Origin: a virus
Direction: 5' to 3' (one strand)
IMG/VR virus record: IMGVR_UViG_3300040856_002664
Location: 1-24,410 of that record
Length of the DNA: 24,410 nucleotides
The notes below the pieces were generated by a model. The model was given only the letters and a program-made list of their open reading frames with translations, was not told the origin of the DNA and did no database searches. How positions within the stretch are numbered: position 1 is the stretch's first letter; the number at the start of each line of letters is the position of its first letter. Made by a program: the position numbers and the translations under genes. Shown one piece after another: positions 2,365 to 17,442 of the stretch.

Positions 2365-2467
2365 AACAATCCTCACGATAGAGTGAGTGCTAACACAATG
2401 AGGGTAAGTCCCTCATGTAACTAACCCGAACTGATGTACAGTCCGGGGATAGCTACAGGAGAGAATC
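2365..2467 (-). promoter_or_regulatory. structured 5' leader, copy 1 (candidate cis-regulatory RNA)
   Basis: Lies directly upstream of the start at 2364. In plus coordinates it has three stems: 2372-2376/2383-2387 (CTCAC/GTGAG, 6-nt loop), 2398-2404/2410-2416 (ATGAGGG/CCCTCAT), and 2425-2433/2439-2447 (nine pairs, with one A/C position that becomes G-U on the minus strand). GCTAACACA joins the first two, and GGAGAGAATC marks the far end. The first stem covers the GAGG ribosome-binding site. Copy 2 (3331-3413) keeps the plan, with a different first stem. Confidence 0.55.
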
Positions 2468-2795
2468 AACGCATCAAATAAAGATGCGCGTTTGCATCTA
2501 CATCGGCCTGCGTTAGTTCGAGTCTGTCTGCATCACAACTCTCGTTAATGTCGTGACACCAGAGCCAGAACAAACGCTGTACATTCTCTGTATGATTGCA
2601 CAAGTCACAAGGTTCCCATGCACCATAACCTTGCAAGTGCTCGCGGATTAACCATGCTGGGCCATCGAAGTTAAGCCGATCGACCCAGTAAACTACAGCC
2701 TCATCGTTAGAACCTTGTGCGCTACAATCAATAACAGCTTCTACAGGCGGCGTGGCGATTGCACTGCGATCGTTAAACCATTCGTTCTTGAACAT
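2466..2795 (-). CDS. small hypothetical protein (109 aa)
   Basis: ATG at 2795 (MFKNEWFNDRSAIATPPVEA). The central part holds a Cys/His cluster, EPCDLCNHTENVQRLFWLWC, which could coordinate zinc but lacks a complete textbook motif. The C-terminus reads LTQADVDANAHLYLMR. It is preceded by the 19-nt leader repeat also found before the gene at 2824-2988. Its 3' end abuts the conserved GGAGAGAATC of the following leader. Function unknown. Confidence 0.75.
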   Translation of the reverse strand: MFKNEWFNDRSAIATPPVEAVIDCSAQGSNDEAVVYWVDRLNFDGPAWLIREHLQGYGAWEPCDLCNHTENVQRLFWLWCHDINESCDADRLELTQADVDANAHLYLMR

Positions 2796-2993: not shown

Positions 2994-3012
2994 GATTGTG
3001 ATGGGTTAGTTA
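2994..3012 (-). repeat. 19-nt leader repeat, copy 2
   Basis: GATTGTGATGGGTTAGTTA (plus strand), one mismatch from copy 1 at 2802-2820. It lies in the leader of the gene starting at 2988. Confidence 0.7.
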
Positions 3013-3018
3013 AAGAAC

Positions 3019-3330
3019 TCAGGAGCAATAACGGCCGAGGATAACGTCGCCGTCGTCGCACAACTTGATAAGAACTCCGCTGAAGTAGGAGTCAGCAGCT
3101 ACACCGTGCCAGTCATACATTGGGCTGTCAGGTGAAGCGTTGACTCGCATGAAGTCGGACAAAGCGTAAGTGAAACCTTTGTAAGTTACAAAGGATTCAT
3201 CCTCAAACTCAGTGTCAGTTAAATAGTCAAACTGCTTGCGAATCTTTGCAGCTTGCTTGTCACCGACAAAGAGTTCTAGTGTCAGCCCTGACATAGGCTG
3301 ACGGCGTTGATTGTTGGTCTTGATGTTCAT
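3019..3330 (-). CDS. small hypothetical protein (103 aa), first gene of the array
   Basis: The ATG at 3330 (MNIKTNNQRRQPMSG) is preferred to the in-frame GTG at 3339, which lies within the leader hairpin. It contains FDYLTDTEFEDESFVTYKG, then FTYALSDFMRV, and ends SGVLIKLCDDGDVILGRY. I recall this 'EF..SSF.TYKG.TY.L.DFMR' layout from small cyanophage proteins, role unknown. It is the promoter-proximal gene of the array and carries copy 2 of the structured leader. Confidence 0.8.
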   Translation of the reverse strand: MNIKTNNQRRQPMSGLTLELFVGDKQAAKIRKQFDYLTDTEFEDESFVTYKGFTYALSDFMRVNASPDSPMYDWHGVAADSYFSGVLIKLCDDGDVILGRYCS

Positions 3331-3413
3331 AACATTCACCAGCTACATGGCTGGCAGCTAACAACAAAGAGGGAAGAATCCCTCACCTAACCGCGTGGCT
3401 GGGGGAGAGAATC
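3331..3413 (-). promoter_or_regulatory. structured 5' leader, copy 2 (candidate cis-regulatory RNA)
   Basis: Same architecture as 2365-2467. The first stem is 3339-3343/3350-3354 (CCAGC/GCTGG, again a 6-nt loop) next to the start codon, then GCTAACAAC, then 3369-3373/3380-3384 (GAGGG/CCCTC), and finally GGGAGAGAATC at 3403-3413. Compared with copy 1, three of five pairs of the first stem differ and all remain paired. A GGTGA ribosome-binding site begins in the stem's minus-strand 3' arm. Confidence 0.55.
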
Positions 3414-3437
3414 TAGTCTGTGATCAAGAATGATCAA
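3410..3437 (-). promoter_or_regulatory. candidate sigma70-type promoter for the minus-strand array
   Basis: On the minus strand TTGATC (plus 3432-3437) and TAGATT (plus 3410-3415) are separated by 16 nt, each matching four of six consensus bases. Transcription would start near 3403 and produce leader copy 2. The TGATCA boxes overlap the -35 element and the spacer, as expected for an operator. This is inference from sequence resemblance only. Confidence 0.35.
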
Positions 3438-3450
3438 ACGTGATCAAACT
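3421..3450. repeat. three TGATCA boxes at exact 10-bp spacing
   Basis: The palindrome TGATCA occurs at 3421, 3431 and 3441, each followed by AA. Ten base pairs is about one helical turn, so all three boxes face the same side of DNA. This suits a cooperative operator or protein-binding array over the candidate promoter. Confidence 0.6.
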
Positions 3451-3473
3451 TAGTCACCATCCTGACAAGGCTA

Positions 3474-3520
3474 GAGCCTAACTGGCTCCGCCCCAATACA
3501 GTTCAGGCTTGGCACCTGAA
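3474..3520. other. two short hairpins in noncoding DNA
   Basis: GAGCC/GGCTC at 3474-3478/3484-3488 and TTCAGG/CCTGAA at 3502-3507/3515-3520. Neither is followed by a T-run on either strand. They sit between the TGATCA array and the large structured region and could belong to its end. Confidence 0.45.
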
Positions 3521-3599
3521 ACTAAATTGAACGCATTGTGTTAGTTACAGAGCACAATTTGCCCACAATTTGCAGAGTTTGCATCGCCATCGCCGGATA

Positions 3600-4371
3600 A
3601 CGACCGGGTGAGATGCTCGCTCAGCTATGTCCAGCGTACCTGCACTAAGGACAGATACTCTGGACAAGCCTGCACGCGGACAAGTTGCGACTCTGTAACT
3701 AACGCAAGCCACGGTGACGACTACCGTTGCGTCGCTAAATGTAGAGAACGACTCTACTGACCAGTTCTAGTTACAAACTGCTCACCTAGTTAAAGGTGGC
3801 AGCTGACAAGACAGCCGACATACAAACAGTGCAGAGTGTCTATCCTGCCCGCTGACATACGGGTGGCCTACTCAGTTCGGCTACATGGTCCGCACTGTTT
3901 GTCTGAATTATGAAAGAATAGGCGCGGCAGGTTTCGTACTACCCTCACAGGGTTCCTACTACGCGCACACCTATTCTGTTTTCAAGGTTCTCTCACCTAG
4001 TTACCTACTACAACTCCCGCCGCTCTCGTTCCGGCACACCATGCCTGCCCTTGCCTACACTTCGGGGAAGTACTCCCTACCATCAGCGGCAGACGCGCGG
4101 GGCCAGTTCGGCCGTCGCGGGAATCGGTTCGGTTGTCTAGGTGCCCTGGCGGCGTGGCTTGCGCCCCGTCTCTCCAGTGACCCCAATATGGGGCCAGGGG
4201 CACCACTAGGTCAACCCCTCCCAGCCGGTTGTCACATTGGCACACAAAGCAAGGTCTGCTCTGTAGCTAATGGAAAGCGCGCAGGCGCACGCGCTAGCAC
4301 CACGCAGCGCCTTTCGTCAAGCGGCTTCACAGACTGAATTCTGTTTAGTTAAAGGGCACACCCTGCCCCCA
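3600..4371 (-). ncRNA. candidate large structured noncoding RNA (GOLLD/ROOL-like size)
   Basis: About 770 nt with no convincing gene. The one long plus-strand reading frame (3885-4337) is Pro/Ser/Leu/Arg-rich and domainless. The stretch is dense with nested helices: 3628-3634/3660-3666 (7 bp), 3702-3707+3712-3715/3723-3732 (10 bp, one bulge), 3741-3746/3752-3757 (6 bp), 3783-3787/3794-3798, 3822-3832/3892-3902 (11 perfect pairs), 3915-3922/3970-3977 (8 bp, enclosing 3941-3945/3949-3953), 4019-4024/4085-4090, 4131-4135/4212-4216 continuing into 4140-4149/4194-4204 with an inner 4181-4184/4190-4193, 4273-4280/4307-4315 and 4354-4358/4364-4368. Several helix-end A/C positions become G-U on the minus strand, which mildly favours that strand. 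GOLLD and ROOL are phage-linked RNAs of 600-900 nt, so a relative or a new class is possible. Family identity is not shown. Confidence 0.55.
3768..3804 (+). repeat. TAGTTACAAACT-hairpin-GCAGCT element, copy 1
   Basis: TAGTTACAAACT (3768-3779), then the hairpin CACCT/AGGTG (3783-3787/3794-3798), then GCAGCT (3799-3804). The same order of parts occurs at 8561-8593 with a different hairpin sequence. Its role is unknown. It lies inside the structured region here. Confidence 0.5.
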
Positions 4372-4402
4372 GAGTACAAAGAATAAAACAGTGGAGCAGT
4401 TT

Positions 4403-4432
4403 GTAATAGATAAGGATCGCTATGTAATTCAA
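4403..4432 (-). promoter_or_regulatory. weak candidate minus-strand promoter
   Basis: On the minus strand TTGAAT (plus 4427-4432) and TATTAC (plus 4403-4408) are separated by 18 nt, four of six consensus matches each. It points into the structured region and would place a start near 4395. Chance matches of this quality are common. Confidence 0.22.
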
Positions 4433-4453
4433 ATAGCTAACTACACGCGCACG

Positions 4454-4477
4454 CCTGCCCGCAATCCTGCCCGCAAT
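4454..4477. repeat. tandem 12-nt repeat CCTGCCCGCAAT x2
   Basis: Two perfect adjacent copies (4454-4465, 4466-4477), followed on the plus strand by a run of eight or more T at about 4482. CCTGCCCGC also appears once at 3844-3852. From here to 4590 I see no gene. A short palindromic hairpin TCGCC/GGCGA lies at about 4508-4520. Confidence 0.6.
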
Positions 4478-4593
4478 GTCCCTTTTTTTTAAATGTACGC
4501 GCTTGACGTCGCCGCCGGCGAGATGCTTTTGTGAATCTTGCTGGAAAATTGGGGGTAAAACTTTTGGTATCAGTATTTTGGCAGTAGTCGGAC

Positions 4594-4618
4594 AAAAAAA
4601 ATCGCCCGCGTGGGGCGA
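4594..4618 (-). terminator. intrinsic terminator of the 5204-4623 transcript
   Basis: On the minus strand the stem TCGCCC/GGGCGA (plus 4602-4607/4613-4618, 5-nt loop) is followed directly by eight T (plus 4594-4601). It begins 5 nt past the stop codon at 4623, so it ends that two-gene unit and separates it from the structured region. Confidence 0.85.
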
Positions 4619-4622
4619 GAGG

Positions 4623-4814
4623 TCAAACTTTTTCGGCTTCTGTCAGAAAATCTTTTAGGAATCTGACGTAACTTCGTAATAAATCGGCTGCTATAAGGTG
4701 TTTTGTGTCGTTTGAGCTAAAATAAAATGCGTTGTGCTGGTCAACGGCGTCTAGTGCCGTCTTGATGACCCCGGTCCAAGGTTCTCGGATGGGGTTGTTC
4801 CACTCCCGTGCCAC
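4623..4814 (-). CDS. small hypothetical protein (63 aa), cyanophage-type
   Basis: GTG start at 4814 (MAREWNNPIREPWTGVIKTA). Helical and amphipathic, with the pattern 'WTGVIKTALDAVDQHNAFYF' then 'ADLLRSYVRFLKDFL', which I recall from small cyanophage proteins of unknown role. It is followed immediately by a strong intrinsic terminator. There are 45 nt between it and the upstream gene, so they are probably co-transcribed. Confidence 0.75.
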   Translation of the reverse strand: MAREWNNPIREPWTGVIKTALDAVDQHNAFYFSSNDTKHLIAADLLRSYVRFLKDFLTEAEKV

Positions 4815-4859: not shown

Positions 4860-5204
4860 CTACAGTTTTTCGAGTCGAAAGTGGATTTCGTCGGGGAATT
4901 CCGGGAAGAACGCCAGCGTTGCGGGACACAACCAACCCTCTAGTTTGTTCCATGTGTACCAAGAACCTCCAAACGCATCTTGAACTTGCTTTAAGACGCC
5001 GTGGGTCAATGGAAACTCTTGTTCTGCGAACAGAATGCGGTAGTTTTTTCCCTCTTCGTACAGGTTTTGTTCTTTTAAAGCTGTGTTGATGATTTCAGGT
5101 ACTCCCAAAACGAAGGGTTCATGTAGCAATTCGCGTTCTTTGTCGGTAAAACACCACGTTCCGTTGAATTTATAGATTTCGATGCTCAGCATTGCGTTTG
5201 CCAT
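4860..5204 (-). CDS. DUF6717-like protein (114 aa)
   Basis: ATG at 5204. The sequence MLSIEIYKFNGTWCFTDKER, then EPFVLGVPEIINTAL, then FGGSWYTW and EGWLCPATLAFFPEFP follows the layout I recall for DUF6717: YK.NGTWVF, EPFV.G...I, FGG.WY and GWLCPAL..YFP. That family occurs in phages and bacteria and has no assigned reaction. The family match is from memory of the pattern, not from a search. It is the first gene of a two-gene minus-strand unit divergent from the large virion-protein gene. Confidence 0.75.
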   Translation of the reverse strand: MANAMLSIEIYKFNGTWCFTDKERELLHEPFVLGVPEIINTALKEQNLYEEGKNYRILFAEQEFPLTHGVLKQVQDAFGGSWYTWNKLEGWLCPATLAFFPEFPDEIHFRLEKL

Positions 5205-16686: not shown

Positions 16687-16708
16687 TCTTTTGTTAAAAT
16701 ATTGAAAC

Positions 16709-16734
16709 CCCGGCGGTGCGCTAACACCCCAGGG
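16709..16734 (+). other. imperfect hairpin before the HNH gene
   Basis: Inner stem GGTG/CACC (16715-16718/16725-16728, loop CGCTAA) and outer stem CCC/GGG (16709-16711/16732-16734), followed by GCATGACCACCTG. From memory, similar hairpin-plus-'GCATGACCAC' blocks precede free-standing HNH genes in other phages; this is unverified. It may mark the boundary of a mobile HNH unit. Confidence 0.45.
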
Positions 16735-16758
16735 CATGACCACCTGCTTTCCCAGGCG

Positions 16759-17391
16759 ATGCCTAAGTATAGACCCATGCCGCCGCTTGAGCGGCTGAAT
16801 GAGCTGTTTGAAGTTGTCGAGATTCCACCGGATAAATACGGGAAGTGGTCGGGGTTGATACGGAAAATCGGTCGCCAAGGAGGAGGTAAAGCCGGCAGCG
16901 TGGCCGGGAGTCTGCACCCTTCTCCGAGCAACCCGGATCGATTCGATTGGACGGTTACGGTTGACGGGGTTTCGTACGTCGCATCACGTGTTGTTTACTA
17001 CATGGTACACGGTATTGACCCTGGGGATGCTCAGGTCGATCATAAGGACCAGAATTGGTTGAACAACAACGTGTGGAACCTAAGACTGGATGTCGACGGC
17101 CGTATTCAAATGGTTAATACCCCGAAACCGCGAGACAATACCAGCGGCGTTGTAGGCGTATCTTGGTGTACGGCAAGGAGGAAATGGCAGACGGCGGTAC
17201 TTATTCGAGGTAAACGTAAACACCTTGGTTACTACATTTGCAAAATCGAAGCCGCCCGCGTGGTTCAGGACAAGTGGATCGAGCTCGGCTGGCATGAACT
17301 AGGCCGCAAGCTACCTGATCTTAATAAAATCGACTGCGAGTGTTTCGCTTGTAGTAGTATGACGATATGCCCGAGTGACCCAGCGGAATGA
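16759..17391 (+). CDS. HNH homing-type endonuclease with AP2-like domain (210 aa)
   Basis: I prefer the ATG at 16759 (MPKYRPMPPLERLNELFEVV) over an upstream TTG at 16702 that would read through the hairpin. The HNH core is SRVVYYMVHGIDPGDAQVDH, then KDQNWLNNNVWNLR: His of VDHKDQ, Asn of LNNNVWNLR. An AP2-like DNA-binding segment follows (TSGVVGVSWCTARRKWQTAV, then GKRKHLGYYICKIEAARVV). Such proteins nick or cut DNA to spread their own gene and are common free-standing genes in phages. The last eight codons lie inside the tRNA gene, so the two overlap by 23 nt. The C-terminal FACSSMTICPSDPAE is thus partly dictated by tRNA sequence. Confidence 0.88.
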   Translation: MPKYRPMPPLERLNELFEVVEIPPDKYGKWSGLIRKIGRQGGGKAGSVAGSLHPSPSNPDRFDWTVTVDGVSYVASRVVYYMVHGIDPGDAQVDHKDQNWLNNNVWNLRLDVDGRIQMVNTPKPRDNTSGVVGVSWCTARRKWQTAVLIRGKRKHLGYYICKIEAARVVQDKWIELGWHELGRKLPDLNKIDCECFACSSMTICPSDPAE

Positions 17392-17442
17392 GGTACTCGA
17401 CTTAAAATCGAGCAGTCGGCGGTTCGAATCCGCCCTCGGGTA
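17369..17442 (+). tRNA. tRNA-Leu (anticodon UAA), short variable loop
   Basis: Complete cloverleaf of 74 nt: acceptor stem GCCCGAG/CTCGGGT (17369-17375/17435-17441, first pair G-U), discriminator A17442, D arm ACCC...AGGT with G18G19, anticodon stem CTCGA/TCGAG around loop CTTAAAA (17401-17407), variable loop CAGTC, T stem GGCGG/CCGCC and loop TTCGAAT. The anticodon UAA (17403-17405) reads leucine codon UUA. CCA is not encoded. Bacterial leucine tRNAs normally have a long variable arm, which is absent here. Confidence 0.93.

Follow-up and report, generated by a model that had tools for sequence, protein, structure and literature searches.

A large structured RNA with an exchangeable domain and boxA-like sequences in uncultured cyanophages related to Synechococcus phage S-EIV1

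What a virus genome gains from 1,283 noncoding bases between two small genes is the question raised by a locus in a 24.4-kb IMG/VR virus record, which was analyzed over its full length of 24,410 nucleotides (hereinafter, the window). The gap (3340-4622) is bounded by minus-strand genes 4623-4814 and 3019-3339, in a region of small minus-strand genes without assigned function that extends from 5204 down to ~200; the late genes, including structural ones, are located on the plus strand from 5310 onward. No defence genes were found next to the structured RNA described here. An earlier note on this DNA had delineated a structured, noncoding region of ~770 nt (3600-4371); both properties hold but the extent does not, given that the gap spans 3340-4622 and the RNA ~1,070 nt. 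That the locus encodes a conserved minus-strand RNA is nearly certain, and this large RNA, which matches no known RNA family, is undescribed.

The longest ATG frame in this region of the window (150 aa, plus strand, 3885-4337), for which protein-level conservation had been considered, is absent from the homologous loci, which carry other, mostly far shorter frames on either strand, so that protein coding can be ruled out. The alignment of the homologues is rich in indels that disregard the reading frame.

Homologous loci were fetched from IMG/VR with the two flanking genes A and B (see the feature list below) as probes. Homologs of the structured RNA are present on 31 contigs besides the window, namely, 21 contigs identified by an exact pattern search for the most conserved core motif and ten more identified by profile and BLAST matches. 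The same neighbor genes are found in most homologues whose contigs keep the flanks, and in all complete loci gene A is encoded downstream in the same direction. The gap is conserved in blocks at ~67-82% nucleotide identity, and a recognizable core is missing from some distant relatives. Searches of cultured phages, plasmids and GTDB genomes found no copy of the RNA, and a literature search found no paper on such an RNA in cyanophages. In the 5' to 3' direction of the minus strand, the features of the locus are:

4860-5204, minus strand: upstream gene B, 114 aa, DUF6717-like, used as a probe
4602-4618, minus strand: intrinsic terminator of the upstream gene 4623-4814, TCGCCCCACGCGGGCGA TTTTTTTT, then T8
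4481-4590, minus strand: 5' block of ~108 nt, GCAAGAT...TTCTCGCC-N4-CG.CG...TAAAAAAAAGGG
3414-4483, minus strand: body of the large structured RNA, ~1,070 nt, covarying, with both ends predicted
3994-4143, minus strand: core domain with the motif GCTGATGGTAGGGAGTACTTCCCCGAAGTGTAGGC at 4087-4053 (alignment A3, covariance model R1)
4132-4143, minus strand: first boxA-like sequence, CACCTAGACAAC, whose CACCTAG pairs with 4000-3994
3979-3990, minus strand: second boxA-like sequence, GAACCTTGAAAA, then CAGAATAG
3805-3978, minus strand: exchangeable domain, in the window version with stems 3977-3915 and 3902-3822
3776-3804, minus strand: conserved hairpin AGCTGCCACCT-TTAACT-AGGTGAGCAGTT
3540-3703, minus strand: 3' domain, with GTTAGTTACAG (from 3703) and CTGTAACTAAC (to 3540) as its closing strands
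3458-3524, minus strand: two more hairpins, 3524-3499 and 3498-3458
3421-3450, minus strand: conserved GATCA repeats, TTTGATCACGTTTGATCATTCTTGATCA, a possible operator or 3' border
3340-3413, minus strand: leader of gene A, TCTCTC...GAGGGA...TCCCTC, with alternative hairpins
3019-3339, minus strand: downstream gene A, 106 aa, no assigned function, used as a probe

The terminator of the upstream gene is retained in most near relatives. The adjacent 5' block, which contains an A8 tract and ends with TAAAAAAAAGGG, is nearly gap-free in all homologues and shows no covariation; because of this fixed spacing and lack of covariation, it looks like a promoter or a protein-binding region, and it probably serves as the promoter or the start of the RNA. 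A search of the block for a sigma-70 promoter yielded no match. A variable 5' domain separates the 5' block from the core. The stem at 4131-4216 described previously does form when the window is folded alone, but the conserved pairing is a different one: the comparative data show that the core is closed by CACCTAG (4143-4137) pairing with CTAGGTG (4000-3994). The 3' domain encloses a hairpin at 3670-3623 and a strongly covarying one at 3622-3575.

Compared with shuffled sequence, the full RNA (4483-3414) folds with a z score of -9.1 on the minus strand and -6.1 on the plus strand (-5.0 and -3.2, respectively, for 3600-4371 alone), and across 16 sequences, including the window, the mean z score is -6.6 for the sense strand and -5.3 for the other strand. 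RNAalifold structures were derived for the core (A3) and the 3' domain (A4), with 19 sequences in each alignment. Compensatory changes were detected in 16 of the 39 core pairs and in 20 of the 53 pairs of the 3' domain, where one hairpin has changed on both sides in 10 of 13 pairs; these figures are somewhat inflated because the structures come from the same alignments that were tested. With one exception, the pair-type count of A4, the values for both alignments exceed those of all 500 column shuffles; a shift of the partners by 1-3 columns reduces pairing from 94-96% to 28-44%. Against a tree-aware null (200 simulated alignments, with substitutions reshuffled along the tree), the compensatory counts lie 11.5 (core) and 8.7 (3' domain) standard deviations above expectation, and none of the 200 simulations reaches the observed value. 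A covariation search across all column pairs with a tree-aware null yielded no single significant pair, probably because deep clades are scarce and one member, L054, is broken (see below); in contrast, the whole proposed structure is clearly positive against the same kind of null.

The argument of the earlier note that A/C positions at helix ends become G-U upon minus-strand transcription is borne out on a larger scale. Read as the minus strand, the core alignment contains 88 G-U and 9 A-C cells, and that of the 3' domain 82 and 13, respectively; when the strands are folded separately, the respective G-U:A-C ratios are 90:16 and 116:34 for the minus strand and 47:21 and 75:53 for the plus strand. 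Because G-U far exceeds A-C, the minus strand is the RNA. The single pair that seemed to favor the plus strand (3700/3734) falls outside the conserved structure, where the partner of 3703-3690 is 3553-3540. Two short motifs recur in the 13 homologues counted, which are not independent of one another: TAACTA, with 52 occurrences versus 2.9 expected (2-5 copies per RNA), and CTTGTC, with 39 versus 3.0. Both are possibly recurrent structural or tertiary contact motifs. Palindromic kissing loops were rejected because the palindrome of the AGTACT core loop, present in the window, is not shared by every relative.

The segment between the core and the conserved hairpin is exchanged as a unit. It lies between a GACAA-type anchor and a TTGTC anchor, both of which are kept, and at least four unrelated versions of it are found among the relatives. 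In relatives that share the window's module, both of the long stems noted previously are upheld by compensatory changes, the one of 11 bp at 3822-3902 as well as the one of 8 bp at 3915-3977 (GAATAGG/CCTATTC to AACTAAG/CTTAGTT, and AACAGTGCGG/CTGCACTGTT to ATAGAGTGTG/CACTCTAT); in other relatives, an unrelated replacement is present. The window version additionally contains two paired AGUA/GAA segments reminiscent of loop E motifs. Even RNAs that are otherwise almost identical can differ in the version that they carry (e.g., L050 and L053), which suggests that the domains spread by recombination. In L054 (contig 3300046786_000888), an insert splits the RNA between the core and the 3' domain. 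Its opposite strand carries a 121-aa HNH endonuclease frame, reminiscent of a homing endonuclease targeting a conserved RNA gene.

The second boxA-like sequence of the window (3990-3979, transcribed minus strand), GAACCTTGAAAA, is an exact 12-mer identical to the boxA of the cyanobacterial 16S-23S rRNA spacer (sequence listed in PMC8461337). In an Oscillatoriales genome, which represents the host group, GAACCTTGAAAACTGCATAG is located 466 nt past the 3' end of the 16S gene, just before the apparent start of the 23S gene. Compared with the boxA plus D4 arrangement of the spacer, the 12-mer is the same but is followed by CAGAATAG in the phage and by CTGCATAG in the host group; furthermore, the phage RNA contains no 16S, 23S or tRNA, and its two copies flank a folded core. 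A 20-base boxA probe alone says little because its matches come from genomes of many phyla, and no rRNA or CRISPR markers were found close to them; the copy in the 16S-23S spacer, in contrast, is an informative match. In nearly all core-bearing members, the core lies between two boxA-like sequences ~155 nt apart, and most of the diverged members carry such sequences as well, with ACCTTGAAAACTGAATAG in L026. Most homologues contain GACAA in place of the GAAAA of the exact boxA, a deviation of one base, and the first copy is base-paired in the conserved structure. Because GACAA also pairs with TTGTC, the structural and boxA explanations are mixed, and the resemblance to boxA may be partly structural. 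Antitermination at the putative boxA site is nevertheless likely; cyanobacteria are not known to possess Rho, which bears on what such a site would do. A Microcoleus MAG (L099) contains GAACCTTGAAAACTGAATA away from rRNA markers and downstream of a promoter-like stretch; this site perhaps marks the leader of a different untranslated RNA encoded by the host group.

The carriers of the RNA are ~30 uncultured cyanophages related to Synechococcus phage S-EIV1 (KJ410740), the nearest and only cultured relative found, and the window virus is of freshwater type. An 86-kb relative (G002) encodes a terminase, a portal-like protein, a primase and a DNA polymerase. Among cultured phages, S-EIV1 provides the sole match to the portal-like protein (46% identity over 79%) and also the best match to the primase (28%). 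A cyanobacterial host is likely because of these protein matches and the boxA sequence. S-EIV1 itself shows a weak match to the 5' block at a similar position (44522-44437, E 0.19), but the core and the 3' domain were not detected in it. At the matching place, there is only a short noncoding gap (44031-44522) with an A-tract element and no detected RNA body, which may hold a reduced or different RNA.

The suggestion that the RNA is a relative of GOLLD or ROOL is not supported by comparison with the covariance models. A scan of the region against Rfam 15 to E<=10 yielded nothing beyond two chance-level hits, and in whole-Rfam scans of 13 homologous loci, only tRNAs scored above the gathering score. 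The GOLLD (RF02032) and ROOL (RF03087) models run on 12 records found nothing above the cut-off; no control genome matched in the ROOL run, and that model was also covered by the whole-Rfam scans. OLE had no match in the whole-Rfam scans of the window and the homologues, and membership in any of the three families is accordingly not supported. The reading that survives from the earlier note is that of an undescribed class, a large ornate RNA encoded on the minus strand of a cyanophage.

GOLLD and ROOL are phage RNAs that are often encoded near tRNA islands and form RNA-only cages (PMC12286853). The RNA described here resembles GOLLD in being phage-encoded, as indicated by the IMG/VR virus records and the phage genes of G002, and noncoding, in having an elaborate fold, a size that in GOLLD often exceeds 800 nt and a function that is likewise unknown, and in being partly conserved and partly variable. 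In GOLLD, the 3' region is conserved and the 5' region less so; the cyanophage RNA has a conserved 3' domain too, but also a conserved core and 5' block, and its variable parts, including the exchanged domain, are internal. The cyanophage RNA also differs from GOLLD in possessing boxA-like sequences and in its location outside a tRNA island: the only tRNA gene of the window (tRNA-Leu, 17369-17442) is ~13 kb away, although tRNAs occur ~4 kb from the RNA in some relatives. Like ROOL, it is large and ornate, comes from a phage or prophage and has no assigned function, but it is 1,070 nt long, compared with the 574 positions of the ROOL model, and is not part of a tRNA island. The RNA shares the style and setting of GOLLD and ROOL and, by analogy, may work like them without being homologous. 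Giant structured phage RNAs are among the least understood natural RNAs, and GOLLD and ROOL proved to form surprising cages; the comparative data for an unrelated further class open another way of finding out what such RNAs do for phages. Swapping of the exchangeable domain and tests of the boxA-like signals offer a direct experimental approach. The intergenic DNA of uncultured cyanophages evidently harbors large RNAs that are missing from Rfam.

We give an even chance to the explanation that the locus encodes a stand-alone structural scaffold RNA. In these uncultured relatives of S-EIV1, minus-strand transcription would start from the conserved 5' block near 4590-4481, past the terminator of the upstream gene, and stop before the leader of gene A, yielding a trans-acting RNA of ~1.07 kb that folds into a fixed core, a 3' domain and an exchangeable domain. 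If GOLLD and ROOL are a guide, this RNA would most likely build up in infected cells as a stable RNA particle or scaffold, either on its own or together with proteins; the boxA-like sequences would probably recruit host Nus factors (NusB, S10), as on rRNA operons, such that a long untranslated RNA could be made in full and folded properly. This explanation is supported by the covariation, sense-strand folding, G-U excess, lack of a conserved ORF and boxA match, by the succession of a fixed 5' block and a variable body behind a separate upstream terminator, by the exchange of whole domains between retained anchors, which agrees better with a self-contained scaffold than with a simple regulator, and by the GOLLD/ROOL-like size and phage setting (PMC12286853). 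The absence of a clear 3' terminator (see below), the prevalence of GACAA, the pairing of the first boxA-like sequence and the distant relatives without a recognizable core count against it. A more specific version, which we put forward tentatively as somewhat less probable than not, is an undescribed class of giant ornate phage RNAs that combine a fixed scaffold, exchangeable cassettes and host boxA signals and form a large particle in infected cyanobacteria.

A different possibility, which appears rather unlikely, is that the entire region acts in cis as a giant leader: it would form the 5' portion of an mRNA that continues into gene A and the minus-strand genes behind it, and would control their expression through attenuation or processing. 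The invariable position of gene A downstream agrees with this, as does the 3' end of the RNA, where no clear terminator was found and, in several relatives, no T run follows the GAGGGATTC/TCCCTC hairpin; hence, read-through into gene A is possible. Moreover, the last 75 nt contain two mutually exclusive hairpins around the invariant GAGGGATTC, and this leader, which looks like a cis-regulatory or processing element with alternative hairpins, recurs before another small gene (2376-2467, minus strand; GATTCTCTCC - stem - GAGGGACTTACCCTC); copies are also present in L002, L010 and L018. The repeated leader, however, shows that ~75 nt are enough for regulation, and a kilobase with exchangeable domains far exceeds the needs of known leaders. 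It is more doubtful still that the RNA is a decoy or mimic of the host pre-rRNA, in which the boxA-like pair binds NusB, S10 or ribosome-assembly factors and thereby redirects host transcription or ribosome production to the phage. The paired arrangement around the core, the boxA-like sequences in most of the diverged members and the exact boxA of the window are what one would expect of a decoy, but the first copy is base-paired, most copies are one base off, and the bulk of the RNA is left unexplained. Finally, the nearly gap-free 5' block with its A8 tract resembles a DNA-binding region, as might be found in a replication origin or a packaging site whose conservation mimics structure; given that the covarying helices and the excess of G-U over A-C point to RNA, and that in two records the cumulative GC skew does not turn markedly at the locus, such a DNA-level element is highly improbable.

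Two observations concern other parts of the window. Very low folding energy is also found in two mostly coding 200-base stretches, 2401-2600 (minus strand, z -6.5) and 3001-3200 (plus strand, z -4.6). Farther away, the 3' end of an HNH_3 endonuclease gene (16702-17391) overlaps the tRNA-Leu gene (17369-17442).
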